Below the pieces are notes generated by a model, which saw only the letters and a list, made by a program, of their open reading frames with translations, had not been told where the DNA came from and searched no databases. From Clostridia bacterium (GTDB lineage: Bacteria; Bacillota; Clostridia; Oscillospirales; Acutalibacteraceae): a stretch of DNA of 57,733 nt. The number at the start of each line of letters is the position of its first letter. The stretch's first letter is position 1. Below are positions 15,777-37,632 of this stretch, one piece after another. Where the stretch lies: the NCBI GenBank assembly GCA_017549105.1, contig JAFYVN010000001.1, forward strand, positions 1 through 57,733. The letters run 5' to 3'. The position numbers and the translations under genes were made by a program.

Positions 15777-16310
15777 TTAAGATTCTTTTTCGTTTTTTAT
15801 TTCTTTTTCTGAATTTCTGAATCTGTAAAGCGCAATCAGTGACGAGATGATTCCCGCAATCTGTGCAAAAACAGCAGTTGATCCGAGAATTCCGTGGTAA
15901 ACGGTCCAGGTTGACAAATTAACAAGCAGAAACATTCTGATACGCTGTTCTTTTTTCTGAAACACGGCAAGCATATAGAAAAGTGCCGCAAAGGTTGACA
16001 GCAAATCAATCGGAGCTTTTATTCCGATTATTCCTCCGCCTGCATAAAGAATGAGGAAGATTATTTTTTCAACCGTACCCGGCTGAGTTCCTTTGAACTC
16101 GTGCCAGATTGAAAAAATGAGCTGAAAAACAGCAACAAGACAAACCACAACGCCAGAATTGAAACCGTCAAGCAAAAGAATATTGGCTGCCGAAAAAAGG
16201 TTGACAAAAACAGACAGTATAAGCATCTGCTTTTTCTTCTTTAACTGTTGATTTATAATTACTCCCGCCGTAACGAGAATTCCGAAAAACTGAGCTATAT
16301 AGTATTCCAT
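15777..16310 (-). CDS. YgjV-type inner membrane protein
   Basis: About six short hydrophobic segments fill this 177-residue protein (for example MLILSVFVNLFSAANILLL and GVVVCLVAVFQLIFSIW). Its pattern resembles the YgjV/Imp-YgjV family of small bacterial membrane proteins, whose role is unknown. The start at 16310 (MEYYIAQF) follows AGGTGA at 5 bases. It lies 41 bases after the VTT-domain gene and is probably co-transcribed with it. The C-terminus is charged (RNSEKEIKNEKES). Confidence 0.65.
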   Translation of the reverse strand: MEYYIAQFFGILVTAGVIINQQLKKKKQMLILSVFVNLFSAANILLLDGFNSGVVVCLVAVFQLIFSIWHEFKGTQPGTVEKIIFLILYAGGGIIGIKAPIDLLSTFAALFYMLAVFQKKEQRIRMFLLVNLSTWTVYHGILGSTAVFAQIAGIISSLIALYRFRNSEKEIKNEKES

Positions 16311-16351
16311 AATTTCACCTGTGAATTTCAAGCTAAAACGGAGTTATGCCA

Positions 16352-17301: not shown

Positions 17302-19143
17302 ATGAAAAAAGCTGTCAAAATCATTATTTCTCTGGTTTTGTGCATCTGTTTTATGATGCCTTCGGTTGCTTTTGCTTCCGAAAGCGAAAAGACCTATGAC
17401 TCCGTTGCCGAGTATGTTGCGGAATCCGAATCGGAAAGCAGCGGTTCGTCAGACTTCAAAATCGGATTTTCAAGAGCTGTAAACGCTCTGAGCAACTTTG
17501 TTATCAACGGTCTGCTCGGCACAGCTCTCAAGCTCGTCATTCCCGATTCTGCCGCAGTTGCCGACTACGAAAAGTTCGATATCAACGAATATGACAACTT
17601 CTACCCTGGCACAGAAAACTTCATCGATGAGCCTCAGGGCGACAAAGTCTGGAGCCTCGGCTACGGCAAAGCATCCGTTCTCCCTGCCGATTTCGGTGAA
17701 AAGCAGTATGCAAAAGGTGCATATATCCCTTATGTTTTCGGCAACGATATGTATACCGATGAGGATGGTAATAAAGAAGACCTTATGGTCAGAGCCGTTG
17801 TTATGAATGACGGTTCAGGCAGAGGCAACGTTGTTTTTATTGCTCTTGATGCAATGGGATTTGCTAACTCAGACGTAAGAAAAATCCGCGAAGCTCTCAA
17901 GGATATCGCAAAGAAACACAACATTGTCAGCATCAACGTTTCATGCACCCATATTCACACGGGCATTGACTCCCAGGGTGTATGGACCGACCCCGTCGGA
18001 TGCATTGTCAACAATATGTTCAGCGGTCTTACCCGCAACGTGAGATACGGTGTTGAGCGTTCGTTCATCGAATCTGTTGTTTCGGGTTCAAAGAAAGCGG
18101 TTGAAGATGCTCTTGCGGATATGACAACGGGTAAGCTCTACTATTCACAGCTCAACGTTGAGGAATATGTTTATGACAGAACCGCTCCCATTTCGCTCGA
18201 CACAAACTTATATAAGCTCGAGTTTGACCCGTTTGCAAAAGATAAGACTCCCACAATCATTGCAACTTTCGGATGCCACCCCGAATCCGCAAGCTATGAC
18301 TGGGCAAACGCAGACCCCGAAAAGACTCTTTCATTTGATAAAAAATTCTCGCCCGACTTCATCTGGAGCGCTGAAATGATTATGAACGACGCAGGCTATA
18401 ATTTCATCTTCATTCAGGGCAACGTTTCAACCGTCACATCCGCAAGACGTCTTACCGGTGACGGAGTTGATGAATTCCCCGGCAACGCTCACTACACCTC
18501 CATCCGCTACGGTTACGAAATTGCATATCTTCTTCTCGGTATGAATATGACCGAAGCAGAAAGAATTAAGCTCAACGAAGCAACGGGCGACAGACTCGAA
18601 ATTTCAAAATACAACGGTCAGGAAAATTACAGCGTATGGTACGAAAACCTCGAAACCGTTGAAGCTGTTGAAGTGAAACCTGTTCTCAACATCAAGACCA
18701 AACAGTTCACCGTCAAGATTGATAACAACATCATCGTTCTTCTCGGCAAAACATCCGTTGCAGATAACTTCATCCTCAAGGATAACTGGGGCAGATACTA
18801 CACCGTTACAGAAGTAGGCTACCTTGAAATCGGCAACAATATGAAAGTATATATGAGTCCCGGAGAAACCTTCGGTGAACTTGTTTTCGGCGGAAAAGGA
18901 GCAGAAGGATTTGAGCTTCTTCCCGTCAGAGAATACACCGGTGAGGACATCATCGTTATGGACCTTATGAACGATGCGGCAGGCTATGTTGCAAACCCCG
19001 CAAACTATTGCCTCGCAGGTATTCAGTATAACGAAGAATCCGACGCTTACGACAGCGATACATGGTGTCTCATCTCTTACGGAAAAGGCGCTGCGCCCGC
19101 ATTCATCGGCAACTTCTACGATGTCTATGACAGCGTAAGATAA
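17302..19143 (+). CDS. Secreted neutral/alkaline ceramidase-like hydrolase (copy 1)
   Basis: A signal peptide (about 1-27, ending SVAFASES) precedes a domain with the landmarks of neutral ceramidase: NVSCTHIHTG (zinc histidines), FGCHPESA (further histidine), FIQGNVS (position of the nucleophilic serine), SPGETFGELVFG (PGE) and AAGYVANPANY (late tyrosine). Neutral ceramidases cut the amide bond of ceramide. The overall sequence is far from the animal and Pseudomonas enzymes, so the true substrate could be another N-acyl lipid or amide. Length 613. AGAGGTAAT precedes the ATG. It is the first of four close plus-strand genes and has a paralogue 19 bases downstream. Confidence 0.75.
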   Translation: MKKAVKIIISLVLCICFMMPSVAFASESEKTYDSVAEYVAESESESSGSSDFKIGFSRAVNALSNFVINGLLGTALKLVIPDSAAVADYEKFDINEYDNFYPGTENFIDEPQGDKVWSLGYGKASVLPADFGEKQYAKGAYIPYVFGNDMYTDEDGNKEDLMVRAVVMNDGSGRGNVVFIALDAMGFANSDVRKIREALKDIAKKHNIVSINVSCTHIHTGIDSQGVWTDPVGCIVNNMFSGLTRNVRYGVERSFIESVVSGSKKAVEDALADMTTGKLYYSQLNVEEYVYDRTAPISLDTNLYKLEFDPFAKDKTPTIIATFGCHPESASYDWANADPEKTLSFDKKFSPDFIWSAEMIMNDAGYNFIFIQGNVSTVTSARRLTGDGVDEFPGNAHYTSIRYGYEIAYLLLGMNMTEAERIKLNEATGDRLEISKYNGQENYSVWYENLETVEAVEVKPVLNIKTKQFTVKIDNNIIVLLGKTSVADNFILKDNWGRYYTVTEVGYLEIGNNMKVYMSPGETFGELVFGGKGAEGFELLPVREYTGEDIIVMDLMNDAAGYVANPANYCLAGIQYNEESDAYDSDTWCLISYGKGAAPAFIGNFYDVYDSVR

Positions 19144-19162
19144 GTTTAAGGAGAAATGATAA

Positions 19163-20911
19163 ATGAAAAATAAGATTAAGAAAGCCGTCGCTCTTGTTCT
19201 TGCTCTTACAATGATGCTTTCGGGCACAACCCTTGCAACCGCATCCGACGGTGAAGCAATGGATAACAGCGGAATCATGTTCTGCACCAACGCAATCAAC
19301 GGATTGCTCAACGCAGTCTTTATGGGATTCGGCGCACTTTTTCCAAAAGATTTTGATAACATTGATGATTATGTAAGCGAGAATTTCTATGAAGGTACCG
19401 AAAATTTTCTTGATGAACCCGCAGCAGATGCAAAATGGTATCTCGGATTCGGTAAGGCAAGTATGGTGCCCGAAAATCTCAAAGACGGTTCAAAAGAATA
19501 TTACACAGGCGGTTATTTTACCCAGAAAATCAACGGTGTTTATGACGACCAGGGTGCAAACGCAGTTGCACTGAGCGATAACTCGGGCAGAGGCACTGTT
19601 GTTATGGCGGCGATTGACGGTATCGGCGTGTGCAATGCGGATATCAGAACAATCCGTGCCGAAGCTGAAAGAAAACTTGCAGAAATGGATGTTGAAAGCG
19701 ATATCGTTGCAATCAATATCAACAGCACTCATTGCCACACAGTTATCGATACACAGGGTTTCGGTCTTGAACCGCTTCTCAAAACCGTTTTCCAGAATCT
19801 TTTCTCTTTCCTTCCCTTTGTTGAAAAAACAAGAAGCATAGACCCCGAATTCTATGAACTTATGATTGACGGCGCATCGGATGCTGTTGTTGAAGCTTAT
19901 CTCAACAAAGAACCGGGCGAGCTTTATTACTTTGAAACCGAAGGTATCGGCAGAAGCGAAAGAAACAACAACTATATGGATGATAAATACGACTATCTTT
20001 TCAACAAGCGTTACGATATGGAAGGGTATCAGCACGTTATCGCCTGCTTCAAGTTTGTGCCCGATAATGCAAAATCCGCTCCCACGGTGCTTGCAAATGT
20101 CGGAGGACATCCAACAACAATCAACAGGGAAACCAAGCTTCTTTCAGCCGATTTCCCCAACTATATTGAGTATAAAATGAATACCGACGGTATGAACTTC
20201 ATGTTCATCCAGGGTGCACAGTCACCCATTTCGGTTAATAAAGGCGCTGTTAAAACCGAAGAAATCCTTGCCGAGATCGAAGCTGAAATCGAAGCTGACC
20301 CCGTAACCAAGGACTATGAGAGTGCAAAATCACTCGGCTATGAATTCGCAAGAATCATAAAAGAAGCCGAGAAAAACGCAAAGCGTGTAGAACCGATGCT
20401 CAACGTAAGAATGTCGGAAGTTGCAATACCTCTTGAATACGGTCTTATGGAGCTTGGTGCCGTTTCGGGTCTTCTCGGAATGACAACCGTCAAAGATAAA
20501 TCCGCACCCGCAGGATATTCAATCATTTCTGAAGTCGGCTATCTTGAAATAGGAACCGATATCGTTATGCTCACTGTTCCCGGTGAGCTTATTCCCCAGC
20601 TTGTTTACGGCAACGTTGTTGATAAAACGCAGTCATATACAGGCACGGATTGGGACTTTGAATACACCTCAGACCTTGTTCCCGAAGGCAAAACAGTGCT
20701 TGTTATGGGTCTTTGCAACGATGCAATCGGCTATATTGTTCCCGATAACGACTATGCTCCTTTTATTGCCGATTCCCTCTGGAATACCGACCTTGGTGAA
20801 AAACTCTGGGGCAAACCTCAGCGACACTATGAAGAAATGCTCTCTGCAGGAAGCGAAGCGGGTTCAACCGTTATCGGAGCACTCAATACAGTTGTTAAGG
20901 AATACAACTGA
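19163..20911 (+). CDS. Secreted neutral/alkaline ceramidase-like hydrolase (copy 2)
   Basis: This paralogue of the preceding gene (582 residues) has a signal peptide ending near TTLATASDG. It keeps the family landmarks: NINSTHCHTVIDTQG, VGGHPTTI, LLSADFPNYIEY, FIQGAQSP with the serine of the SP motif, TVPGELIPQLVYG and AIGYIVPDNDY. Its catalytic motifs are closer to the classical ceramidase pattern than those of copy 1. The two copies have clearly diverged, so they may differ in substrate or work as a pair. AAGGAG precedes the ATG; the transporter gene follows after 23 bases. Confidence 0.78.
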   Translation: MKNKIKKAVALVLALTMMLSGTTLATASDGEAMDNSGIMFCTNAINGLLNAVFMGFGALFPKDFDNIDDYVSENFYEGTENFLDEPAADAKWYLGFGKASMVPENLKDGSKEYYTGGYFTQKINGVYDDQGANAVALSDNSGRGTVVMAAIDGIGVCNADIRTIRAEAERKLAEMDVESDIVAININSTHCHTVIDTQGFGLEPLLKTVFQNLFSFLPFVEKTRSIDPEFYELMIDGASDAVVEAYLNKEPGELYYFETEGIGRSERNNNYMDDKYDYLFNKRYDMEGYQHVIACFKFVPDNAKSAPTVLANVGGHPTTINRETKLLSADFPNYIEYKMNTDGMNFMFIQGAQSPISVNKGAVKTEEILAEIEAEIEADPVTKDYESAKSLGYEFARIIKEAEKNAKRVEPMLNVRMSEVAIPLEYGLMELGAVSGLLGMTTVKDKSAPAGYSIISEVGYLEIGTDIVMLTVPGELIPQLVYGNVVDKTQSYTGTDWDFEYTSDLVPEGKTVLVMGLCNDAIGYIVPDNDYAPFIADSLWNTDLGEKLWGKPQRHYEEMLSAGSEAGSTVIGALNTVVKEYN

Positions 20912-20934
20912 AAAATTTTTCAAGGAGTAAAGTT

Positions 20935-22539
20935 ATGTCACCAAAAAATGACCTTCAATCAAACGCAAAAGCGTATGAAGAACTCCGCCGGATGCAAAAA
21001 CAACGTGAAGAAGATTCCGTTGCATCAAAAACACAAGACCGACGATATGTAGGCACCAAGGAATCTGTTGGCTTCATCATATGGGATGCCGCGCAGAGCT
21101 TCAACATCAATATTTTTGCAACCCGATTTATCACGAGTATCGTAGGCGTTGACCTCGGATTGCAGACAATCGTCAACACAATCAACAGCGTTTGGGATAT
21201 TGTCAACGATATTTTCTTTGGTGCAGTTGTTGATAAAACCCGTACCCGTTGGGGCAAGTTCAGACCCTTCCTTCTTTTCCTTGCCGTTCCGGGTTGCGTT
21301 CTGACCTGCCTTTATTGGCTGATGCCCCATCTGTTTGAAGGCACAAGCCAGACAGATGTGACAAAACTCATTTTCTACCTTCTTCTCACCGTCGCCCGTG
21401 AAGGCGTGACAACCTTCCAGACAATTTCGAGAACGGGACTTATGTCAACAATCACTCCCCACCCCAACGACAGAACAAGACTCATCACCCTTGCAAACTT
21501 CGCATCCGGTTTCTTCGGAGAAAAACTCCCCGAACAAGCGGTAACAATCCTTATCGACGTTCTCAGAAGTATGTATCTTCACGATGCGGGCAAGCTTGCA
21601 AAGGCATATACCAACCTTTTTGTGGGTATGGGTTGTTTCACCACCATAGCGTCAAGCGCATCTTCATTCTGGTTCTTCTATAACACAGAAGAAAGAGTTA
21701 TGCAGTCAATAAAAACACCGAGCGTTCTTATGTCGGTAAAATCCGTTATAAAGAACAAACCCCTTCTGCTGATAACTCTTTCGGATTTCCTCAGCGGCTT
21801 TGCAATCAAGGGAACCGCAGACGATTATTATACCGATGTTCTGCATTTCTCATCAATGACCCTTGTTGCGGGCATTCCCGCAGCTCCAATCAGCCCCGCC
21901 AGCTATGCCTGGGTACCCTGGATGAGAAGACGTTTTTCGAGCAGACTTCTCTACATACTCGCAAAAGAAATCGGCAATATACTCTATATCCCTGTCTTCC
22001 TTTTCGGCTGTATCGGCATGAAGAAGGATTTTTCGGGCGGTATGTATCAGAAGGTTATTCCCATGGGATTTGCAATGGCTATCTGGGAAATTATCTGGAC
22101 CCTCTTCTTCGGTCTCAAATCCGTTATCGGAACCGAAATGTATAACGAAGCAATGGACTATTGCGAATGGAAAAACGGCTACCGCACAGAAGCAATGGCT
22201 TCCGTTGCAAAAGGCATAGCCGCCAAAGTTTCGTCAAACACAAGTGCAGTTGTAACAACCGCAATCAAAAAAATGATAGGCTACGAAGCAAACGCATTCA
22301 GAACAGGTGCAGAGCAGACAGATAAAGTTAAATTCTTCCTCTTTGCAATGTTCACCATCATCCCTGCCGTAACCGGCTCACTCGGAATTATTCCGATGCT
22401 TTTCTATGACCTTGATAACGACAAAAAAGAAAGAATGTATGCCGAGCTTCTCGAACGCCGCAAGCTTATGAGCGATGCGGTTGAAAGCGATAACGAAGAA
22501 ATGCTCAGGCTTGCAACAGAAGCACAAATTAATCTCTGA
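20935..22539 (+). CDS. GPH-family (MFS_2) sugar/solute:cation symporter
   Basis: This 534-residue transporter has about 12 membrane segments after a charged cytoplasmic N-terminus. The first loop DIVNDIFFGAVVDKTRTRWGK is the glycoside-pentoside-hexuronide (MFS_2) signature (D-P-x-G-x-x-D-x-T-R pattern). Relatives import glycosides and sugars with Na+ or H+. Here the neighbours suggest uptake of a product released by the two secreted hydrolases. CAAGGAG precedes the ATG, and spacing to the gene on each side is short. Confidence 0.85.
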   Translation: MSPKNDLQSNAKAYEELRRMQKQREEDSVASKTQDRRYVGTKESVGFIIWDAAQSFNINIFATRFITSIVGVDLGLQTIVNTINSVWDIVNDIFFGAVVDKTRTRWGKFRPFLLFLAVPGCVLTCLYWLMPHLFEGTSQTDVTKLIFYLLLTVAREGVTTFQTISRTGLMSTITPHPNDRTRLITLANFASGFFGEKLPEQAVTILIDVLRSMYLHDAGKLAKAYTNLFVGMGCFTTIASSASSFWFFYNTEERVMQSIKTPSVLMSVKSVIKNKPLLLITLSDFLSGFAIKGTADDYYTDVLHFSSMTLVAGIPAAPISPASYAWVPWMRRRFSSRLLYILAKEIGNILYIPVFLFGCIGMKKDFSGGMYQKVIPMGFAMAIWEIIWTLFFGLKSVIGTEMYNEAMDYCEWKNGYRTEAMASVAKGIAAKVSSNTSAVVTTAIKKMIGYEANAFRTGAEQTDKVKFFLFAMFTIIPAVTGSLGIIPMLFYDLDNDKKERMYAELLERRKLMSDAVESDNEEMLRLATEAQINL

Positions 22540-22552
22540 TCAGGAGCAAAAA

Positions 22553-23713
22553 ATGGAAGTAAGATATATCACACCTGAAGAAGCGGCAGATTACCAGAAG
22601 ATCTCCGCAGCATCATTTATCTGGAAATTCAATGCCGAAGAAGACAGCACCGTTGAAATGCCTGTTCTTGCGGCTTTCGAAGAAGGTAAACTTATTGCAG
22701 GAGTTGAAATTTTTGATTTCAGAGTCAACTATTGCGGAAAGTTTCTCAATTCCGTTGTTGTCAGCGGAGTCTGCAGCCAGCCCGAATACCGCAGAATGGG
22801 CGGAATCCGCGAAATTATGAAAAAAATCGGTGAAACCGCAATCGAAAATGATTGGACTCTCGCATTTCTGCATCCCTTCTCGATTGAGTATTACGAAAAA
22901 TTCGGCTACGCAAATCTCAACCGTATGTTTGCAATAAAAGTACCGTTTGAAAACCTCAGACACATCCCCCGCAATACCGATGTTATTCTTTACACGGGCG
23001 AGCAAATCGATGAGCTGAGTGAGCTTCACGCAAAATGTGCCCTGCGGGAAAATCTTATGACTCTGCGTGAAGAAAAAAAGCATTTCTGCGATAAGCCTTT
23101 TGAAGAAGCTGACTACACTTATTTCAGACGTGACAAAAACGGCATTGCCGACGGATATGTCCGTTTCAACGTCAAAAGACCCGATGTGCTTCACGTTGAA
23201 GAGCTTTTTGCACTTACACCCGAAGCGGTTTACGGCTTAATCGGTTTTCTTCGCAACTATGACGGAATCGTCAAAACCCTCAGAGTAAAAAAACAGTATC
23301 AGGGCAGCGACTTTGCCTGCATTGCAGACCGCATCGACGATGTCATCTATGAATATGACCACGGTGCTGCAGGCAGAATTTACAATATGCAAAAGCTTCT
23401 GGAAAACAACATATATCCCGAAAAACACGGTAGATTCCGTATGCGTATTATTGATGAATTTGAGCAAAACAACGGAATATTTGATGTTGAATATCAAGAC
23501 GGTAAAGCAACCGTAACCCGCCGATCAGACGGAGACTATGATATTTCTCTGACTGCCTGTGCCGCCGCAAGACTGATGCTTGCGGGTGAAGGTCATACCG
23601 CACAGACCGCTGTTTATATTGACGGAGTTGAAATCAAAGGAAATGCCGACGATTTCTTCAGAGCCTTCCCCTACCGTGCCACACGTTTTGTTGACAGCTC
23701 CTGGTCGATTTAA
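22553..23713 (+). CDS. Eis-type GNAT N-acetyltransferase
   Basis: The N-terminal GNAT domain has the acetyl-CoA loop in VCSQPEYRRMGGIREIM (residues about 75-90). Two further regions follow, the last resembling the SCP2-like C-terminal domain of Eis proteins, for a total of 386 residues, normal for Eis. Eis proteins acetylate amines, including aminoglycosides and polyamines. As the last gene of the ceramidase-like operon this one may acetylate an amine released outside and imported (an inference). I chose ATG 22553 because AGGAG lies 6 bases before it and an upstream start would overlap the transporter gene. Confidence 0.82.
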   Translation: MEVRYITPEEAADYQKISAASFIWKFNAEEDSTVEMPVLAAFEEGKLIAGVEIFDFRVNYCGKFLNSVVVSGVCSQPEYRRMGGIREIMKKIGETAIENDWTLAFLHPFSIEYYEKFGYANLNRMFAIKVPFENLRHIPRNTDVILYTGEQIDELSELHAKCALRENLMTLREEKKHFCDKPFEEADYTYFRRDKNGIADGYVRFNVKRPDVLHVEELFALTPEAVYGLIGFLRNYDGIVKTLRVKKQYQGSDFACIADRIDDVIYEYDHGAAGRIYNMQKLLENNIYPEKHGRFRMRIIDEFEQNNGIFDVEYQDGKATVTRRSDGDYDISLTACAAARLMLAGEGHTAQTAVYIDGVEIKGNADDFFRAFPYRATRFVDSSWSI

Positions 23714-23748
23714 TCCGAACAAAGAAACACATTTTTACACACAAAAAA

Positions 23749-23784
23749 CCTGCCAAAGCAGTTTGCCTTGGCAGGTGATTTTTT
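23749..23784. terminator. Bidirectional terminator between convergent operons
   Basis: CCTGCCAA (23749-23756) pairs with TTGGCAGG (23768-23775). GATTTTTT follows on plus, and TTTTTTG follows on minus, so it can stop both the acetyltransferase transcript and the GH38 transcript. Confidence 0.88.
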
Positions 23785-23795
23785 ACTGTGAAATT

Positions 23796-26651
23796 TTAGC
23801 CTACGAATTTGATTGTGAGAATCTTCTTGCCTGTGATTTCGAAATCAACGAAGCCGTCGGCATCCATTGTAAGAGGAGCGGAATCAAGCTCTTCAAGAGT
23901 AACAAGCTTGACTTCCTTCCAGGCCTTGCCCGAGTATGCGGGAAGCTCGAATTCAGCCATCTGTCTTTCAACGGGTGACTGTGCCTTCTCGATGGGAGCT
24001 ATGCCGCCGTTAAGACGAATCTTGTTCTTGACTGTCTTATCCGAGGGATTGAAGAGTCTGACGATATAACCTTCACCGTCTTCGCTCTTCTTGATTGCGC
24101 TGACGGTAAGATTTTCTTCGCCGAGTTCAATGAATGAATGAACAAGACCGTTCTTGCCGTGTGCTGTGGGTGCAATCTGACCTGCTGTGAGGTAGAGGTT
24201 GAAACGTTCGCTCTCCTGCCATACGTTTGCATCCTCCCAGTTGCCCTGATGAGGCATAAATGCATAGCGGAATGTGTTTACGCCGATGCACTGTGAACCC
24301 TTGTCCCAGTCGCTGTAGTTCTGCATATCCTTGGTAACGCAGATGCGGAGAGGATATGCACGGATGAGTGAAAGGAAGAGAGTGCCGTCTTCGTCGTCTG
24401 CAGCTTCATAAGCCTTGAGACCTGTGTTGAGAAGAGCTGCACCGTATGTGCCGTCATTAATACTTACAAATGAATTCATGGGATGCTCGGTCATGGGAGG
24501 CTCATCGTAAAGTGAGTAGTCAGGCTTCTCGATAGGTCTTGAAACAACATCGAACTGACCCTGAGCATCTGCGTGGGTTGCCTTGATTCCTGTGGGGAAT
24601 GCAACCTGGAGATAGTGGTCTTCGCAGCGGTTGTTGATTGTTGTTTCAATTTCAACAAACTTTGCACCCTTACGAAGAGTTATGAGGCTTTCGATATCAA
24701 CGGGAAGCTTGTGCTCGCTTCTTGTTTTTTCATCGAATGCTCTCTTTTCGGGAAGTTCCCAGCGCATTGAGATTTTGTATGTTGTTTCAAATTCGCCATG
24801 GCGGAGAAGAGTGATTCTTGCCTGCTCACCGAGAGTTGTGAATGTTTCGTCGCATTCGGGAGCAACGTGCTGCCAGGGATTGCCGATTTCTCCGCTGTCC
24901 TTGAAGTAGCCGAGGTTCTTGTATTCCTTGCCTGATGCTTTGTCGATAACATTGTATGTACCGTTGTGGTTGAACGAAACCTTGAGATATTCGTTTTCCA
25001 TAACGTTGGTTGTCTTAACGAGAGTAACGGGAGTGGTTGCACGGACATTATAAAGAGGACGGATTTTGAGAGTCTTGTAGCCCATTGCGGGAACATCAGA
25101 AACCTCTGCCGCAATAAGATACTGCTCTGTGTGGAGCACGTTTGCAGTATCGTTGGGATTCTGGATAATCTGTGCGTTTGCTTTGTTGGTTGAGAGAATC
25201 TGATATTTAACAGCCTTGCCGTCAACATCAAGAATTTCAAAGCTGTCAGCCTTCCACTCTGCGGGAATTTCAACTCTGAGGTTGACTGTTTCTGTTCTCT
25301 TGAAGGGAGCGGGGTTGAACACTACAACCGCAACATCGTCGCGGCTGAATGACTTGAGGTCGATATCGCCTGCGATGTCCATAAATGCACGCTCGAATAC
25401 GCACATTGAAAGCTCTCTTGACTGTCTGTAACGTGACATAACGTCTTCATAAACAACGTCTCTGCCGCAAGAACCGATGCTGTCGTGGCCGTGGTTCTGA
25501 AGAAGATAGTTATATGAAAGGTCAATGAAATTCTGAGGATAGGGTGCGCCCGAAAGGGTTGCGAAAACTGCGAAAGGCTCAGCGTAGTTGATGAGTCTTC
25601 TTTCGGTGTCAAAGTTTTCCTGCTTGATGTATGTTCTTGCAGAAAGAATCCAGCCGCAGAGCTCACTTACGCTTCCCTTGGTGTAAGGATCTCGCATTTC
25701 GCCCTTGAGAACGGGTGAGTTGGGATCAAAGTTATCGATGATGCCCTGCTCCATTTCACGGAGTGTGCTGTGGAACACTTCTGCTTCGGGAAGAGCATCG
25801 TTAAGATCTTTGATAAGCTGAACTTCACGGGCATCGGGGCATGATGAGTCGTGACCCGCTGACCAGAAACGGTGGCTTGTTGTCCAGTCGTTGTCCTGCT
25901 CTTTGACAGCCTGCTCTGCTCTTGCCTGAATATTTTCTGTGTGGTACTCATAGAACGGATGTGTGTACTGATAGTCAAGCTTCCAGTCACGGTCAATCAG
26001 TTTGAAAATACCGTTGTTCTGATTCCAGAGCATATCGCGGTTGTTTTCGTCGGACTGATTGAAGTAAACGGGTCTCTGAACAACGTACCAGATGTTGTAA
26101 CGGGGTCTTTTTGCAAGACGTGAAGCCCAGATGCGTGTGCCGTCGGGGCTTTCCCAATAGAACTCCGACTTGGGAGCCTTATATTCGTTAATGCCTCTGT
26201 AAAATGAAGCAAAGTTGATGCCGAAGCCTGCATAAATCTGGGGAAGCTGTGAAATCTGACCCCAGCCGAAGGGTGAATAACCTGTCTTGCTGATGCCGCC
26301 CATTTCCTTGCCCTGCTTGTGGCCGAGAAGGAGGTTACGGATAAGAGCTTCGCTTCCGACTGTGAATTCATCGGGCAAGCAGAACCAGGGACCTGCTGCA
26401 ATTCTGCCCTCTTTGATATATTTCTGAAGCTTTTCTTTCTTTTCGGGATAAACTTCGAGATAATCCTGCATAGGCATTGTCTGCGAGTCAAAATGGAAAT
26501 GCTTGTATTCGGGATATTTGTCGAGAATATCAAGAAGCATATCTACCATATAACCGAGCATATGCTGTGTGCGGCGTGCTGAGAAACGCCATTCTCTGTC
26601 CCAGTGTGTGTTTGATATAAAATGACACTGGAGCTTATCTTTTTTGTCCAT
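23796..26651 (-). CDS. GH38-family protein lacking the catalytic aspartate
   Basis: The 951-residue protein has the GH38 alpha-mannosidase layout: N-terminal catalytic fold with SNTHWDREWRFS (metal ligands His16, Asp18), a helical middle and a large beta-rich C-terminal half. The nucleophile block is altered: where family members have P-D-x-F-G, this one reads GYSPFGWGQISQLPQ, and no Asp occurs from 111 to 169. The late zinc-histidine block (G-x-D-H) reads AGHDSSCPD. No signal peptide is present. The start at 26651 is 7 bases after AAGGAG. It follows the HAD gene by 11 bases. It may be a pseudoenzyme or a divergent subfamily. Confidence 0.85.
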   Translation of the reverse strand: MDKKDKLQCHFISNTHWDREWRFSARRTQHMLGYMVDMLLDILDKYPEYKHFHFDSQTMPMQDYLEVYPEKKEKLQKYIKEGRIAAGPWFCLPDEFTVGSEALIRNLLLGHKQGKEMGGISKTGYSPFGWGQISQLPQIYAGFGINFASFYRGINEYKAPKSEFYWESPDGTRIWASRLAKRPRYNIWYVVQRPVYFNQSDENNRDMLWNQNNGIFKLIDRDWKLDYQYTHPFYEYHTENIQARAEQAVKEQDNDWTTSHRFWSAGHDSSCPDAREVQLIKDLNDALPEAEVFHSTLREMEQGIIDNFDPNSPVLKGEMRDPYTKGSVSELCGWILSARTYIKQENFDTERRLINYAEPFAVFATLSGAPYPQNFIDLSYNYLLQNHGHDSIGSCGRDVVYEDVMSRYRQSRELSMCVFERAFMDIAGDIDLKSFSRDDVAVVVFNPAPFKRTETVNLRVEIPAEWKADSFEILDVDGKAVKYQILSTNKANAQIIQNPNDTANVLHTEQYLIAAEVSDVPAMGYKTLKIRPLYNVRATTPVTLVKTTNVMENEYLKVSFNHNGTYNVIDKASGKEYKNLGYFKDSGEIGNPWQHVAPECDETFTTLGEQARITLLRHGEFETTYKISMRWELPEKRAFDEKTRSEHKLPVDIESLITLRKGAKFVEIETTINNRCEDHYLQVAFPTGIKATHADAQGQFDVVSRPIEKPDYSLYDEPPMTEHPMNSFVSINDGTYGAALLNTGLKAYEAADDEDGTLFLSLIRAYPLRICVTKDMQNYSDWDKGSQCIGVNTFRYAFMPHQGNWEDANVWQESERFNLYLTAGQIAPTAHGKNGLVHSFIELGEENLTVSAIKKSEDGEGYIVRLFNPSDKTVKNKIRLNGGIAPIEKAQSPVERQMAEFELPAYSGKAWKEVKLVTLEELDSAPLTMDADGFVDFEITGKKILTIKFVG

Positions 26652-26662
26652 ATTCATTCTCC

Positions 26663-27658
26663 TTATCCTTTTATAATTTTCATGATTTCGGCAAAGTTGT
26701 TGCAGAAGTGCGAGCAAACTGCCTTTGTGCCGCTCGATTCGATGTTGCCGCCTGCGATACCGATTGTGGTATAACCTGCAAGACGTACGGAGCAAGCGCC
26801 TGCGCCGCTGTCTTCAATACCGACAACTCTGTTTCTGTCTGCAAATGCTTCGCCGAGACCGACGATTGATGTTTCTGAATAAAGCCAGGGATGGGGCTTG
26901 GGCGAAAGCTCGCCGAGAGTACCTACACTGCCCTTGCGAAGGGGGAAACCTGCGGAGATGATTGCATCATAGAAATCCTTGGGGTCGCCCATTCCGAGGG
27001 TACGGAATGCGGAGAGAATTTCGGGCCATGCTTTTTCGTAAAGTCCCGATGTAACAAGACCGATTTTTACGCCCATATCCTTGAGTTCAAGAAGAAAATC
27101 CTTGACACCCTCTGTGGGAGTGAATGCGCCTTCTTTGCCTCTGCCTGCCATAATTTCTTCCATTTCTCTGTGAGTATGTTCAAAGTAGAAATTACGTGCC
27201 TTTTCAAGTGACTCACCGGGGCAGTATTTGTCGATGCAATACTGAAGATGCTCGGATACGCTGTGACCCGAAACAAAAGGAAGGTCGGCATCTTCAAGCT
27301 CAAACTTGGGGTTACCAAGCATACTTGCGGTGCTCATCTGAATAATCCAGATCCAGAAATCCTCACTGCGTACGGTTGTGCCGTCGAGGTCCATAAGCAC
27401 TGCATTGAGGGGATACTCGGTCTTGACGGGATAAACGGGATAGTAAACGGGGTAAGCAATCGCTGACTTTACACCTGCAAGAGTGTGACTGCCGAATGAA
27501 ACAAATTCAACCTTCTTATCGCCTGTTGCAACGATGCAGTCAACGCCGTTTTTGCCGGTTACGAACTTGCCGTCCTCGGTTGTTTCGAGGAGGTGAAAAC
27601 CGCTCTCGGGGCCGACAATGCCGAGGTCGGGGATATTGATTTTTTTGTCAAGAAGCAT
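26663..27658 (-). CDS. HAD-superfamily phosphatase with a small N-terminal domain
   Basis: The HAD core starts at MDLDGTTVRSED (Asp90, Asp92), followed by VTSGLYEKAW (motif II), the lysine region KPHPWLYSE (motif III) and VVGIEDSGAG (motif IV). The whole set of catalytic motifs is present; the family is phosphoglycolate/beta-phosphoglucomutase-like. About 85 residues of beta-rich sequence with no family I recognise precede it (GIVGPESGFHLLETTEDG). The ATG at 27658 follows AAAGGA by 9 bases; a TTG start at 27676 would lie inside that site. It is first in an operon with the GH38 protein, so its substrate is probably a sugar phosphate. Confidence 0.85.
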   Translation of the reverse strand: MLLDKKINIPDLGIVGPESGFHLLETTEDGKFVTGKNGVDCIVATGDKKVEFVSFGSHTLAGVKSAIAYPVYYPVYPVKTEYPLNAVLMDLDGTTVRSEDFWIWIIQMSTASMLGNPKFELEDADLPFVSGHSVSEHLQYCIDKYCPGESLEKARNFYFEHTHREMEEIMAGRGKEGAFTPTEGVKDFLLELKDMGVKIGLVTSGLYEKAWPEILSAFRTLGMGDPKDFYDAIISAGFPLRKGSVGTLGELSPKPHPWLYSETSIVGLGEAFADRNRVVGIEDSGAGACSVRLAGYTTIGIAGGNIESSGTKAVCSHFCNNFAEIMKIIKG

Positions 27659-27833: not shown

Positions 27834-30800
27834 TTGGCAGAAATCAAAAATTTCGATGCGGTTGCAGCGCTTGACGCAATGGATGCTCACGTTGACGACT
27901 GGCGCGATGCGACCAAAGGCAAGCAGAGAGGTATCTTTTCGTTTGACGACGTTGTCAACGTAAAGCTCAAAACTCTCAAAAAAAGAATTTATACCGATAT
28001 CGAATCACTCGATGCGTGGAAGATGAAGGAATGCATCTACAAGGGCATCGGCGATTACGAATATTTTTATGATGAGTGGAAGGAACTCAACGTAGGCGAT
28101 AAATGGGGTAACAACGGCTGGAGCGCATTCTTCAAGAACTCCTTCGATATACCCGAAAGATTCGCAGGCAAGAAGGTAACTCTCAACGTTTACTTCGGCG
28201 GCGACTCGCTTCTTTCGCTCAACGGTGAACCCTATCAGGGTCTTGACCCCTTCCGCAACAGCGTTCTTCTTTCAGACTGTGCAGAGGCAGGCAAGCACTA
28301 CGACGTTGATATCGAGTCATATTATGTATGGCACTCAAACGAGTCAACAGTAAAGACCCTTTCATGTTCATTCATCGGTGTTGTTGACCCCGTAATCGAA
28401 GAAGTTTACTGGGACTTCAAGGCTGTTTTCAACGCTCTCTTTATGCCCGTTCTCGACACAGGTCTTGCAGAGCTTATCCGCTCCGCTCTTAAAGAAGCAT
28501 TCACTCACGTTAACTTTGACGTTACAGGCGACGAGTTCAAAGCAGGTCTTCTTGAAGCTCAGAAGGTTCTTAAGGACAGAGTATACAACAATCCCAACTA
28601 CAAGACCGAAGGCACACTCTCTCTCGTTGGTAACTCCCACCTTGATATCGTATTTATGTGGGCATACAAAGAGTACGTCCGTAAGCTCGGCAGAACTCAC
28701 GCAACAATGCTTCGTCTTATGGAGCAGTATCCCGATTTCATCTTCTCACAGAGCACAGCTCCCACCTATATCGAAATGGCAGACAAATATCCCAACCTCT
28801 TCGATCAGGTCAAGCAGAGAATTGCAGAAGGCAGATGGGAATACATCGGTGCAATGTGGGTTGAACCAGACTGTAACCTTGTTTCGGGCGAATCCTTTGT
28901 TCGTCAGCTTCTTCACGGCGTAAGATACGCTGAAAAGACATTCGGCATCACTCCCAAGACCTGCTGGGTACCCGACGTATTCGGCAACGGCTACGCTATG
29001 CCCCAGATTCTCAAGAAGGCAGGTGTTGAATATTTCGTTACCCATAAGATGGGTATCTGGAACGATACAAACCCCTGGCAGTATAACACATTCTGGTGGG
29101 AAGGTCCCGACGGCTCAAAGATTTTCTCAATCGTTCCCCCCACCCACTTCATCGGCACAGTTGAGGCTGACTCACTCAAGATGAACTGGAAGAAGTATAC
29201 CGACAAGGCAACAATCGGCGAATCAATGTATTGCTACGGTTGGGGCGACGGCGGCGGCGGTGTTGACACCGAAATGCTCGAATATGCAAAGCGTTATAAG
29301 AGCTTCCCCGGTCTTCCCGAAACAAAGCCCAGCAAGATTGAAGATTCACTTGCAAGAATGAAGGCAAACGCAACCGATACCAACATCCCCACATGGAAAG
29401 ACGAGCTTTACCTTGAAGAGCACAGAGGCGTTCACACAACAAAGGCTCTCCTCAAGAAGCTCAACAGATACAGCGAAAATCTCTACCGTCAGGCAGAAAT
29501 CTTCGCATCAATCGCAATGAAGAACGGCTACGAGTATCCTCTTGAAAAGCTCAACGAAGGCTGGCAGATGATTCTCACAAACCAGTTCCACGATTCACTC
29601 CCCGGCTCACATATCACAGAAGTTTTCGGCGACCTTTGCGCTATCTATGATGATATCATCAAGATCGGTGAAAGCGTTCGTGACGAAGCTCTCAACATAA
29701 TTGCAGGCAACATCAGCGGCGAAGCAAAATACGGCAAGCCCTTTGCACTCTTCAACTCACTCGGCACAGCTGCAACCTCAAAGGTTGAGCTTCCCTACAA
29801 AGATGTTGAAATTTACGACGCAGACGGCAACAAGGTTCCCGTTCAGGCATATACAAAGCTTGACGGCACAAAGGTTCTCGTCTTCGTTGCAAAGGATGTT
29901 CCCGCAGTAGGTTATAAAGTATATTATACAAAGGATGCAGCTGTTGCTCAGGCAAAGGCTGTTGACTGCGCAGATATTGAAAACGACTACTTCAGCCTCA
30001 AGTTTGACGCAGCTGCAGAGCTTGTTTCAATCTTTGACAAGAAGAATGACCGCGAAGTTCTTGAAGGCAAGGGTAACGTATTCCGCATTTACGAAGACCT
30101 TCCCGGTAAGTACGATGCATGGGATATCGTTGCTACATACACAGACCGTGAATTTGAAACCGAAGCAGGCAAGGTTGAATCTGTTGTTATCGGCGATGTA
30201 TTCACCTGCGTAACAATCACAAAGAACATCATGAAGTCAAACCTCAAGCAGAACATCATTATTTATAATGAGCTTGACCGAATTGATTTTGATACCTTCA
30301 TCAGCTGGCACGAGCAGGAGAAACTCCTCAAAGTTGGTTTTGACGTTGATATCAAGGCTCAGAAGTTCACAAGAGATATCGCATATGCAACAATCGAAAG
30401 CTCCAACTACCGTCATAATCCCTATGACAAAGCAAAGTTCGAGGTTTCGGCTCACAACTTCATCGATTTGTCAGAAGACGATTACGGTCTTTCAATCCTC
30501 AACGACTGCAAGTACGGTTATGAAGTAAACGAGCAGAGAATGATTATCACCCTTCTCAAGGCTCCTATGAACCCCGACCCGAAGTCAGACAGAGGCGACC
30601 ACTACTTCACATATTCTCTCTATCCCCACGCAGGAAGCTGGAAGGATGCAGATACTCTTGCAAGAGGTCTTGAGTTCAACAATCCCATGCTTCCCGTTGA
30701 AATCGCAGAGGGTGCAAAGGGTGCAGAAAGCGCATCGTTCATCGCTGTTGACGGCAAGAATGTTACTCTTGAAGCTGTCAAGAAGTGCGAAGACGAAGAT

Positions 30801-30998
30801 GCTTACATCGTTCGTTTCGTTGAAAAGTCAGGCAGAAGAGCAAAGGTCAACGTTGAATTCTTTGCTGAAATCGCAAGCGTTGCAGAATGTAACCTTCTTG
30901 AAAGAGAAGATGTTGCAGTTGACATCGCAAACGGCAAGGCAATGAACTTCGAAATCAAGCCCTTCGAAATCAAGTGCTACAAAGTTAAGGTTAAATAA
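27834..30998 (+). CDS. GH38 alpha-mannosidase (intact active site)
   Basis: The 1054-residue enzyme has an N-terminal beta domain (about 1-255) and then the GH38 catalytic part. This has GNSHLDIVFMW (His269, Asp271), the nucleophile Asp381 in WVPDVFGNGYAMPQIL and the GDGGGG block (471-476). The long C-terminal beta region follows. The architecture is that of cytoplasmic MAN2C1/Ams1-type enzymes, and no signal peptide is present, so it acts on imported mannosides. The start is TTG: AAAGGA lies 8 bases before it and no nearby ATG fits. It diverges from the HAD-GH38 operon. Codon use is biased and translation probably strong. Confidence 0.93.
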   Translation: MAEIKNFDAVAALDAMDAHVDDWRDATKGKQRGIFSFDDVVNVKLKTLKKRIYTDIESLDAWKMKECIYKGIGDYEYFYDEWKELNVGDKWGNNGWSAFFKNSFDIPERFAGKKVTLNVYFGGDSLLSLNGEPYQGLDPFRNSVLLSDCAEAGKHYDVDIESYYVWHSNESTVKTLSCSFIGVVDPVIEEVYWDFKAVFNALFMPVLDTGLAELIRSALKEAFTHVNFDVTGDEFKAGLLEAQKVLKDRVYNNPNYKTEGTLSLVGNSHLDIVFMWAYKEYVRKLGRTHATMLRLMEQYPDFIFSQSTAPTYIEMADKYPNLFDQVKQRIAEGRWEYIGAMWVEPDCNLVSGESFVRQLLHGVRYAEKTFGITPKTCWVPDVFGNGYAMPQILKKAGVEYFVTHKMGIWNDTNPWQYNTFWWEGPDGSKIFSIVPPTHFIGTVEADSLKMNWKKYTDKATIGESMYCYGWGDGGGGVDTEMLEYAKRYKSFPGLPETKPSKIEDSLARMKANATDTNIPTWKDELYLEEHRGVHTTKALLKKLNRYSENLYRQAEIFASIAMKNGYEYPLEKLNEGWQMILTNQFHDSLPGSHITEVFGDLCAIYDDIIKIGESVRDEALNIIAGNISGEAKYGKPFALFNSLGTAATSKVELPYKDVEIYDADGNKVPVQAYTKLDGTKVLVFVAKDVPAVGYKVYYTKDAAVAQAKAVDCADIENDYFSLKFDAAAELVSIFDKKNDREVLEGKGNVFRIYEDLPGKYDAWDIVATYTDREFETEAGKVESVVIGDVFTCVTITKNIMKSNLKQNIIIYNELDRIDFDTFISWHEQEKLLKVGFDVDIKAQKFTRDIAYATIESSNYRHNPYDKAKFEVSAHNFIDLSEDDYGLSILNDCKYGYEVNEQRMIITLLKAPMNPDPKSDRGDHYFTYSLYPHAGSWKDADTLARGLEFNNPMLPVEIAEGAKGAESASFIAVDGKNVTLEAVKKCEDEDAYIVRFVEKSGRRAKVNVEFFAEIASVAECNLLEREDVAVDIANGKAMNFEIKPFEIKCYKVKVK

Positions 30999-35141: not shown

Positions 35142-36326
35142 ATGAAAAAATTTGTTTCGGTTATGCTTGTTTTGGTTATGGCACTTGCAATGCTTCTTCC
35201 CGCAAGCGCATCTGTTCAGAACGCAGATAACAAGCTTCAGTTCAATGCAGACGGCAACTTCCGCATTATGCAGATTGCCGACATTCAGGACGGCCCCTTC
35301 CTTCTTGAAATCGTAAGAGATTTCTTCAAACACGTTATCCCCGCAGAAAAGCCCGACCTCATCGTCCTTACAGGCGACAACATTTCTGCAGGCGGTTCAT
35401 CAATCGGCATTCACGCAACTGACCTTCTTCTTGTTGAAACCGCTATCGACAGATTTATGTCAATCTTTGAAGAAAACGATGTTCCCGTCGCTGTTGTTTT
35501 CGGCAACCACGATGCAGAAGAAATTGTTACAAAAGAAGAGCAGATGGCATTTTATCAGAAATATGACAACTGCGTTGCAATCGACGAGGGCGACGATGTA
35601 TACGGTTGCGGTACATACAATCTGCCTATCTACTCATCAAAGGATGCAAGCAAGATTGCATACAATCTCTGGATGTTTGACTCAAATATGTATGACGAAG
35701 AAAACGGCGGCTACGACTACGTTCATAAGGATCAGATTGACTGGTATGTCAACAAATCAAACGAGCTCAAGGCTCAGAACGGCGGCAAGGTTGTTCCTTC
35801 AATGATGTTCCAGCACATTATCGTTAACGAAATTTACGATGCACTTCTCGAAGTTCCTGCAGGAACAAACGGTGCTGTTGAGCGCAACGGCAAATACTAC
35901 GCCTTCAACCCCGAAAACACAAAGTCAGGCATCGCTCTCAACGAAGCTCCCTGCCCCTCAACTATCAACGGCGGTCAGTTTGATGCTGTCAAGAACCAGG
36001 GCGACGTTGTTGCAATGTTCTTCGGTCACGACCATGTCAACAACTTTGTTGTTGAACACGAAGGCGTTGATCTTGTAAACACTCCCGGTGTCGGCTTCAG
36101 TTCATACGGCGACGAAAACAGAGGTGTTCGCATCATTGATATCAAAGAAGGTACAACCGACTACGAAACAAGGGTTGTTACTTACAAAGATTTCTATGAA
36201 GGCGACGCTGCTGCAGATGCACGTTTCGTGCTCTACGGAAGTGAATTTGACGTTGCAAACAGAATCGCAGCATTCTTTGAATATATCCTTCGTTCCGTTT
36301 CCGGCATCCTCGGACTTATAAAATAA
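35142..36326 (+). CDS. Secreted calcineurin-like metallophosphoesterase
   Basis: A signal peptide (1-24, ending LLPASAS) precedes a domain with all metal-site blocks: MQIADIQDGP, LTGDNIS, VFGNHDAEE, MFQHI and FFGHDHVNN. Length is 394. It resembles secreted phosphodiesterases of the Dcr2/YkoQ type. The substrate is unknown; location outside the cell and the neighbouring glycan enzymes suggest phosphate removal from a host or cell-wall phosphoester (inference). AAAGGAG precedes the ATG. A strong hairpin separates it from a related gene downstream. Confidence 0.88.
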   Translation: MKKFVSVMLVLVMALAMLLPASASVQNADNKLQFNADGNFRIMQIADIQDGPFLLEIVRDFFKHVIPAEKPDLIVLTGDNISAGGSSIGIHATDLLLVETAIDRFMSIFEENDVPVAVVFGNHDAEEIVTKEEQMAFYQKYDNCVAIDEGDDVYGCGTYNLPIYSSKDASKIAYNLWMFDSNMYDEENGGYDYVHKDQIDWYVNKSNELKAQNGGKVVPSMMFQHIIVNEIYDALLEVPAGTNGAVERNGKYYAFNPENTKSGIALNEAPCPSTINGGQFDAVKNQGDVVAMFFGHDHVNNFVVEHEGVDLVNTPGVGFSSYGDENRGVRIIDIKEGTTDYETRVVTYKDFYEGDAAADARFVLYGSEFDVANRIAAFFEYILRSVSGILGLIK

Positions 36327-36334
36327 ATTATAAT

Positions 36335-36369
36335 CGGCGCAGCCTGAAAATTGCTGCGCCGTTGATTTT
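36335..36369 (+). terminator. Terminator between the two metallophosphoesterase genes
   Basis: CGGCGCAGC (36335-36343) pairs with GCTGCGCCG (36353-36361), followed by TTGATTTT. The T-run is interrupted, so some read-through is likely. Confidence 0.7.
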
Positions 36370-36381
36370 GGGAGAAAAAAG

Positions 36382-37632
36382 ATGAAAAGAAAAATATTCC
36401 GCAGAATTTTTTCTGCATTTATGGCTCTGCTGATTGCTTTTATCGGCATCACAACTGTTATCACGGTTATCGGTCTTAATCAAAACCATAAAAAAGCCAA
36501 AAGCTTTTCGCCCGTTGAAACCGAAGAAATCAAAATTGAAAATGTCGGAAACGGAGTGTGGAATATTCATTCCGACCGTGAACTCAAAGTTATGCAGCTG
36601 ACCGATATCCACCTCGGTGGCGGCTGGATGAGCATAAAAAAAGATGCTATGGCACTCAATGCGGTTGCGGCAATGATACAGGCAGAAAAACCCGATTTCG
36701 TTGTTGCTTCGGGCGATATCGCTTATCCTGTGTTCTTCCAGGCAGGCACTTTAAACAACATGTCCGGCGCAAAGCTTTTTGCAGAGCTTATGGAGACTCT
36801 CGGGGTTTATTGGACTGCCTGCTACGGCAACCACGACACCGAGGCCTACAGCTATTACGGACGTGACGATATTACCGAACTTTACGAGCAGTATCCCCAT
36901 TGCCTTATGCGCAAAAGCGCTGAAGGGATTGACGGCTACGGCAATCAGGTGTTCAATATAGTTAACTCAGACGGAGTTATAACCCGCTCAATTTTCACCG
37001 TTGATTCGCATTCATATGTTGACGGTGACATCTTCGGCATTTTCTGGAAATACGACAGCGTTCACAAAAATCAGATTGAGTGGTACAGAAAAACCGTTGA
37101 AGCAAATAAGAAACACAACGAAATGAAGCTTCTTGAATCAAGCAACAGTGATTTTTCAGCGAACAACCCGACCGTATTCAATCCCAAATCAACGGTATTT
37201 CTTCACATCCCCTTTGCCGAATACAAAACAGCGTGGGATGAATATGTGGCAAACGGCTATGCCGACACAGAAAACGTTAAGTATAATTACGGTGCCGCAG
37301 GCGAAAAAGACCCTACAGTTTATCACGGCATTTACGAAGATGATTTCTTTGAAACAATGCTTGAGCTGAACAGCACAGACAGTGTTTTCTGCGGTCACGA
37401 CCACCTCAACAACTTCTCGCTGAATTATAAAGGCATTGACCTTGCATATTCACTGAGCGTGGATTATCTTGCTTATATCGGCATCAGCAAACTCGGCACT
37501 CAGAGAGGATGCACCGTTATGAACATCGCTCCCGACGGCACAATGGAAACCTCGATTGAAAACTATTATCAGGATAAATACGTTTCTCAGTACGAGAAAG
37601 AAGAAGTAACGATGCAGGAACTCGGGAAATAA
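36382..37632 (+). CDS. Membrane-anchored metallophosphoesterase
   Basis: The protein has a basic N-terminus and one uncleaved-looking membrane helix (about 10-31), so it is probably anchored with the enzyme outside. Metal-site blocks are MQLTDIHLGGG, ASGDIAYP, CYGNHDTEA, FLHIPFAEY and CGHDHLNNFS. It is a distant paralogue of the previous gene (416 residues). Substrate unknown. GGGAG lies 8 bases before the ATG. The PHP phosphatase gene follows after 17 bases. Confidence 0.87.
   Translation: MKRKIFRRIFSAFMALLIAFIGITTVITVIGLNQNHKKAKSFSPVETEEIKIENVGNGVWNIHSDRELKVMQLTDIHLGGGWMSIKKDAMALNAVAAMIQAEKPDFVVASGDIAYPVFFQAGTLNNMSGAKLFAELMETLGVYWTACYGNHDTEAYSYYGRDDITELYEQYPHCLMRKSAEGIDGYGNQVFNIVNSDGVITRSIFTVDSHSYVDGDIFGIFWKYDSVHKNQIEWYRKTVEANKKHNEMKLLESSNSDFSANNPTVFNPKSTVFLHIPFAEYKTAWDEYVANGYADTENVKYNYGAAGEKDPTVYHGIYEDDFFETMLELNSTDSVFCGHDHLNNFSLNYKGIDLAYSLSVDYLAYIGISKLGTQRGCTVMNIAPDGTMETSIENYYQDKYVSQYEKEEVTMQELGK

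Follow-up and report, generated by a model that had tools for sequence, protein, structure and literature searches.

What would a bacterium do with an operon that joins two ceramidase-like proteins to a sugar-type symporter and an acetyltransferase? The question is raised by four plus-strand genes in the window, the whole 57,733-nucleotide stretch of contig JAFYVN010000001.1 from a Clostridia bacterium (Acutalibacteraceae) that was analysed here; the genome assembly, 64% complete, has 12 contigs totalling 1.24 Mb. The genes form one operon (17302-23713), which lies next to two genes of the α-mannosidase family GH38:

17302..19143, plus strand: CerA, 613 aa, neutral-ceramidase superfamily, signal-peptide-like N-terminus; HxH 217/219, His326, Glu522, Tyr562; ceramidase serine column, Thr379
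19163..20911, plus strand: CerB, 582 aa, neutral-ceramidase superfamily, signal-peptide-like N-terminus; HxH 190/192, His316, Glu475, Tyr524; ceramidase serine column, Ser357
20935..22539, plus strand: GPH (MFS_2) cation symporter, 534 aa, closest solved relative MelB
22553..23713, plus strand: Eis-like GNAT acetyltransferase, 386 aa, two GNAT domains and an SCP2-like C-terminal domain
23748..23776, no strand assigned: strong terminator-like hairpin with T runs flanking both sides, between the operon and the convergent GH38 gene
23796..26795, minus strand: GH38 α-mannosidase-like gene (context), start codon uncertain
27834..30998, plus strand: second GH38 α-mannosidase gene (context)

The tight spacing described in the first-pass annotation holds, with coordinates as given there and intergenic gaps of 19, 23 and 13 nt in order, and a Shine-Dalgarno-like stretch precedes each of the four genes. 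For the Eis-like GNAT, the start is most likely at 22553 rather than at the upstream ATG at 22475. The operon was also said to end in one strong terminator, and the hairpin is indeed strong (13 pairs, -21.4 kcal/mol, z -4.29, with 0 of 200 shuffles equally good); however, the terminator scan assigns it to the minus strand and, since T runs lie on both sides, it probably works for the convergent GH38 gene too. Promoter-like hits in the window are at chance level (15 observed against 11.6 expected). Two genes upstream of the operon, on the opposite strand, lies a gene for an Imp-YgjV inner-membrane protein (15777-16331, minus strand), which may belong to the module because relatives of it are found beside or near Eis at three other loci (L081, L083 and L090). 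Elsewhere, the window carries a tandem pair of calcineurin-like phosphoesterase genes (35142-37632, plus strand) and a gene for a 967-aa protein of the CoA-enzyme activase type with BcrAD_BadFG and DUF2229 domains (40660-43563, plus strand).

Are CerA and CerB ceramidases? The two proteins are 28-29% identical to one another, and both score below the Pfam gathering score of 32.1 bits for PF04734 (26.5 for CerA and 13.9 for CerB). A paralogue in the same genome (C6) totals 35 bits when its pieces are summed. Searched as single sequences against solved structures, CerA and CerB gave nothing meaningful, and the NCBIfam models gave neither of them a name. A 36-row family profile, of which 22 members match PF04734 at E <= 0.1, finds the neutral ceramidases of human (4WGK, E 1.6e-6) and Pseudomonas aeruginosa (2ZWS, E 3.4e-5) among solved structures, together with one stray match (2q5c, 0.0011). 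With this profile the homology is clear, and CerA and CerB are remote homologues of neutral ceramidase, so the family assignment of the first-pass annotation stands through the profile and not through the Pfam score.

The residues tell a divided story. In an alignment of 116 relatives (73 from the genus and 43 from outside, with two identical pairs among the rows), the HxH pair (H217 and H219, CerA numbering), the Glu of PGE (E522) and the Tyr of NDxxGY (Y562) are invariant, and a third His (H326) is kept in 113. The 73 are those that could be aligned among 79 Cer-like ORFs of the genus, the others being two wrong-frame ORFs and four shorter than 430 aa. We take these five residues to be the zinc ligands of neutral ceramidase. 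The serine of the GDVSP-like motif, presumably the catalytic residue of neutral ceramidase, behaves differently: in a column placed by the GDVSP of one relative (L200), with a register uncertain by one residue, the CerA group has Thr in four of five and Ser in one, the CerB group has Ser in all nine, outside any GDVSP-like motif, and the rest of the family has Tyr, Ile, Asn, Ser or others. Thus, of the histidine, serine, PGE and tyrosine landmarks at first ascribed to both proteins, CerB has the full set and CerA has Thr379 in place of the serine. The Cer family has probably kept the metal site and not the ceramidase serine motif. To judge by eye from their N-termini, CerA and CerB are probably exported; by the same inspection, the type P paralogues, the first type T gene and the clpC type (all described below) have no plain signal-like N-terminus.

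The other two genes are more readily placed. The symporter matches MFS_2 at E 2.7e-39 (135.4 bits against a cut-off of 27) and its best solved match is MelB, over residues 8-462; it scores below the cut-off of TIGR00792 (144.2 against 231.35 bits). The family is strongly expanded in the genus, whose genomes, about 1.2 to 2.8 Mb in size, each have between 5 and 28 matches. The window gene is one of 12 in its genome, and the presence of a GPH carrier in the module therefore says little alone. The acetyltransferase has the domain order Acetyltransf_9 (6.7e-19), Acetyltransf_17 and SCP2_2, all over their cut-offs, as expected of an Eis-type protein, and its scores against the NCBIfam Eis equivalogs (24.6 and 23.3 bits) fall far short of the respective cut-offs (701 and 576).

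Is the gene set conserved? Of 37 genomes of the genus, 35 have relatives of CerA, against 2 of 23 others of the order; four loci with close CerA relatives come from Oscillospiraceae or Clostridia assemblies, two of which are labelled sheep rectum and water buffalo cecum. Orthologues of Eis (E <= 1e-120) are present in 12 of 45 genus genomes, and in 10 of these 12 CerB adjoins Eis, with room for at most one gene between them (for G737 and G739 the adjacency is taken from coordinates). In five genomes that gene is the GPH symporter. The two exceptions are G011, with the genes on separate contigs, and G035, where a close CerB is lacking. Counting a close CerB as one of at least 75% identity, 11 of the 45 genomes have both genes, one has Eis alone and 33 have neither. 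In one genome (G006; L092, 8714-10470) the CerB beside Eis is in two pieces, so that either the gene is disrupted or the assembly is wrong there. Two genomes, G022 and G020, have the arrangement CerA, GH38 α-mannosidase, CerB, GPH, Eis, and the inserted GH38 is separated from its neighbours by 1 nt (on the CerA side) and 14 nt. Both GH38 genes of the window differ from this operon-internal GH38, to which they are 22-26% identical, and the one at 23796..26795 is not its orthologue. In G036 and G032, GPH directly follows CerA with no CerB, the contig of G032 ending there. The module is thus patchy and mosaic within one clostridial genus, the link between CerB and Eis being the firmest, and the synteny check proposed in the first-pass annotation came out in its favour: conserved clustering of this kind argues for a functional unit.

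More telling are the paralogous Cer pairs found elsewhere in the genus, whose neighbours were identified by scanning one representative per family. At six loci (type P) a NagK-like kinase, MurQ, a small GNAT and a GH84 glucosaminidase precede two Cer genes, with NamZ close by in four of the six. At five others (type T; L095, L096, L099, L102 and L105) two Cer genes and a GH3 gene diverge from genes for BNR proteins (two per locus, one in L099), a KdsB-like cytidylyltransferase, two proteins of 480 and 403 aa with no Pfam match at 1e-3 (and for the 403-aa protein no convincing match among solved structures), and a GNAT of the type P GNAT family. The type P MurQ and the type T KdsB score over their respective cut-offs, and the content of the type T clusters suggests a Kdo or sialic acid pathway. 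In the Cer tree, built with FastTree and subject to long-branch warnings, the partners of a pair fall in different clades: the first type T Cer groups with the second type P Cer, and the second type T Cer with CerB. In G022, one contig carries both the CerA-GH38-CerB-GPH-Eis operon and a type P cluster, which starts about 3.3 kb beyond the Eis gene.

All three paired architectures include an acetyltransferase. A GNAT lies at most three genes away at 14 of 14 genus loci with a clustered Cer pair (three architectures rather than 14 independent events) against 4 of 23 single-Cer loci, a comparison that omits L092 and L119 (where the two Cer genes are not arranged as a tandem), tracks two GNAT families, so that other GNATs near single-Cer loci could be missed, has the single-Cer count raised by L088, L089, L091 and L092, fetched wholly or partly for carrying Eis, and includes loci cut by contig ends (L013, L084-L087 and L089). 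Around the single-Cer places compared by eye in G022, G036 and G011, no PF00583 match is listed within 20 kb. Within G022, a GNAT accompanies three of the seven Cer loci listed (there are at least seven), against about 0.37 expected from the PF00583 list plus Eis (a rough Poisson value of 0.006). Among single-Cer settings, clpC-pth-spoU, AKR-GDSL-PTS-FtsW and AzlC have no clear amino-sugar link.

Does the association with amino sugars extend beyond the genus? In the class, at least 26 of 391 genomes (own genome included, three candidates scored per genome) match the Cer profile at 1e-10, and in the phylum 19 of 299 genomes match PF04734 at 1e-5, against 0 of 14 controls. A sample of 40 loci outside the genus contains 43 Cer genes with 99 operonic neighbours (same strand, gaps of at most 100 nt), of which 93 were scanned; five from L191, which nearly duplicates L190, and one ORF of L188 that is very long were omitted. 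Among the 93, SIS_2 occurs 9 times, Amidohydro_1 7, DegT 6, ROK 6 and MocA 5, with GH84 (3), RpiR (3), FGGY (2) and PIG-L (2) rarer; the counts for GH84, PIG-L and FGGY are too small for individual judgement. Each of these families occurs at most once among 109 control genes from the same genomes (110 were drawn at random from the 271 ORFs of 39 regions, out of 40 requested by contig number, and one was excluded for its length). With the control set at 1, Fisher values are 0.006 for SIS_2, 0.025 for Amidohydro_1 and 0.050 for ROK, which serve only as a guide because neighbours from related genomes are not independent. One Amidohydro_1 and one ROK neighbour that were checked are NagA-like and NagC-like, respectively, each below the cut-off of that model. 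Amino-sugar and glycan genes thus surround the Cer-like family more often than the control would lead one to expect, and among the neighbours identified no lipid context was noted.

The 25 commonest families of these neighbours include no GNAT family, so the acetylation partner is seen in the genus only. Apart from L170 and L171, the relatives outside the genus mostly have no signal-like N-terminus (by eye), and since they are also distant, on long branches, their function may not transfer to CerA and CerB. A NamZ-like gene lies near one such Cer gene (L174), a GH38 gene adjoins another (L189), and tandem Cer-like pairs recur at L176, L182 and L188.

The reading that we favour, at a probability of roughly 40%, is that the operon is a module for scavenging an amino-sugar-containing glycoconjugate by means of exported amide hydrolases, uptake and N-acetylation. 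In the scheme that we infer from sequence and gene context, for secretion, activity, metal, amide substrate, direction of transport and GNAT target alike, CerA and CerB would be exported, Zn-dependent members of the neutral-ceramidase superfamily with amide hydrolase activity. Their extracellular target would be an amide of the glycoconjugate, most probably the N-acyl group on an amino sugar. The soluble amino-glycoside would enter through the GPH symporter, in some species a cytosolic GH38 α-mannosidase, which has no signal peptide, would trim it, and the Eis-like GNAT would acetylate the amine set free, so that an ordinary N-acetyl amino sugar results. Lipid A, GlcNAc-Asn, N-acyl amino sugars and amides of muropeptides are all candidate substrates. 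Some of the Cer relatives outside the genus have NagA-like genes as neighbours, so these relatives cannot simply replace NagA. The route first proposed (an amide- or sphingolipid-like compound cleaved outside, its soluble part imported and its amine acetylated inside) fits the conserved clustering, whereas its sphingolipid variant is weakened by the sub-cut-off scores, a serine that is not kept across the family, the paralogous pairs beside muramic-acid or BNR/KdsB/GH3 genes, and the relatives outside the genus that often adjoin amino-sugar genes. With so many Cer relatives among amino-sugar genes, amide bonds of sugars are a likelier target than ceramide, and we favour amide hydrolysis on amino-sugar glycoconjugates, followed by uptake and N-acetylation, over sphingolipid breakdown.

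A wider and more tentative proposal is that the whole clostridial branch of the neutral-ceramidase superfamily may have switched from sphingolipids to amino sugars, the tandem Cer genes and their GNAT forming “N-acyl exchange” modules that replace a non-standard acyl group with acetyl. An amino sugar would lose, for example, an N-glycolyl group or the 3-hydroxyacyl amide of lipid A and gain an acetyl group, which would let normal amino-sugar pathways use the product. If the amino-sugar reading is right, proteins of clostridia that would be labelled “ceramidase-like”, and counted as sphingolipid degraders in gut metagenomes, are amino-sugar amide hydrolases, and gut bacteria would have both a new enzyme activity and a new way of using glycoconjugates or bacterial envelopes. 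Among the titles and abstract openings covered here, from papers treating ceramidase-family proteins in a gut or sugar context, none links PF04734 proteins to amino-sugar genes. SrfJ, which is compared with glycosylceramidases in PMC9430895, was set aside as unrelated.

Could the operon instead serve the use of bacterial cell walls? The Cer proteins would then be muropeptide amidases that cut the MurNAc-L-alanine amide in place of AmiE, which belongs to the mur cluster of Bacillus subtilis (PMC5061867). The six type P loci, the position of one of them just past the operon in G022 and the NamZ-like gene at L174 all point this way. However, clustering at 1e-15 found no member of the type P kinase, MurQ and NamZ families in the window, and two relatives insert an α-mannosidase instead; we consider this reading unlikely. 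GH84 was not found in the window's genome, 64% complete as it is, by a search that also matched no control genome.

Alternatively, CerA and CerB may be true ceramidases acting on ceramides or glycosylceramides, with the sphingoid base imported and N-acetylated. The homology to the human and P. aeruginosa enzymes, the conserved metal-site residues and the serine retained in the CerB clade are consistent with this, and MFS_2 includes the lysolipid carrier MFSD2A, to which the symporter has a weak match (2.5e-7). Set against these are the PF04734 scores of both proteins, a serine column that is Thr in CerA and variable across the family, a transporter whose best match is MelB, neighbours among which, as far as they were identified, no sphingolipid gene was noted, and a genomic context that lends ceramide less support than an amino-sugar substrate; taken together, they make a sphingolipid pathway rather improbable.

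A third possibility is that the Cer proteins cleave the amide of the GlcNAc-asparagine that remains once N-glycans have been digested, while α-mannosidases trim the glycan, as the GH38 genes within the operon of two relatives, beside the operon in the window and next to Cer at L189 might suggest; it would leave the GNAT with no role, no endoglycosidase was noted among those neighbours that were identified, and we give it little credence. Detoxification, in which the Eis-like GNAT and the amide hydrolases would inactivate aminoglycoside-like or N-acyl compounds of competitors, has the Eis-type domain order in its favour and is very improbable given the catabolic context of many relatives and the fact that GPH carriers are mostly importers.

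How does the favoured amino-sugar module compare with known systems? The homology to neutral ceramidase (4WGK and 2ZWS) is detectable across the N-terminal half; the HxH and the third His align with both structures and the Tyr with 4WGK, while the Glu is conserved in the Cer family. Unlike neutral ceramidase, the Cer proteins fall under the Pfam cut-off, have Thr (CerA) or a Ser outside an SPN motif (CerB) in the serine column, and have many relatives in a sugar-gene context. The muramic acid recovery cluster of B. subtilis (murQ-murR-murP-amiE-nagZ-ybbC) resembles type P in its MurQ, a glucosaminidase and, often, NamZ; it differs in that type P has a Cer pair and a GNAT in the place of AmiE, and the window operon is without any mur gene. 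The symporter joins MelB within the GPH carriers, over the MFS_2 cut-off and under that of TIGR00792, and the GNAT shares its GNAT-GNAT-SCP2 order with the Eis-like acetyltransferases 3N7Z, 2HV2 and 2I00.
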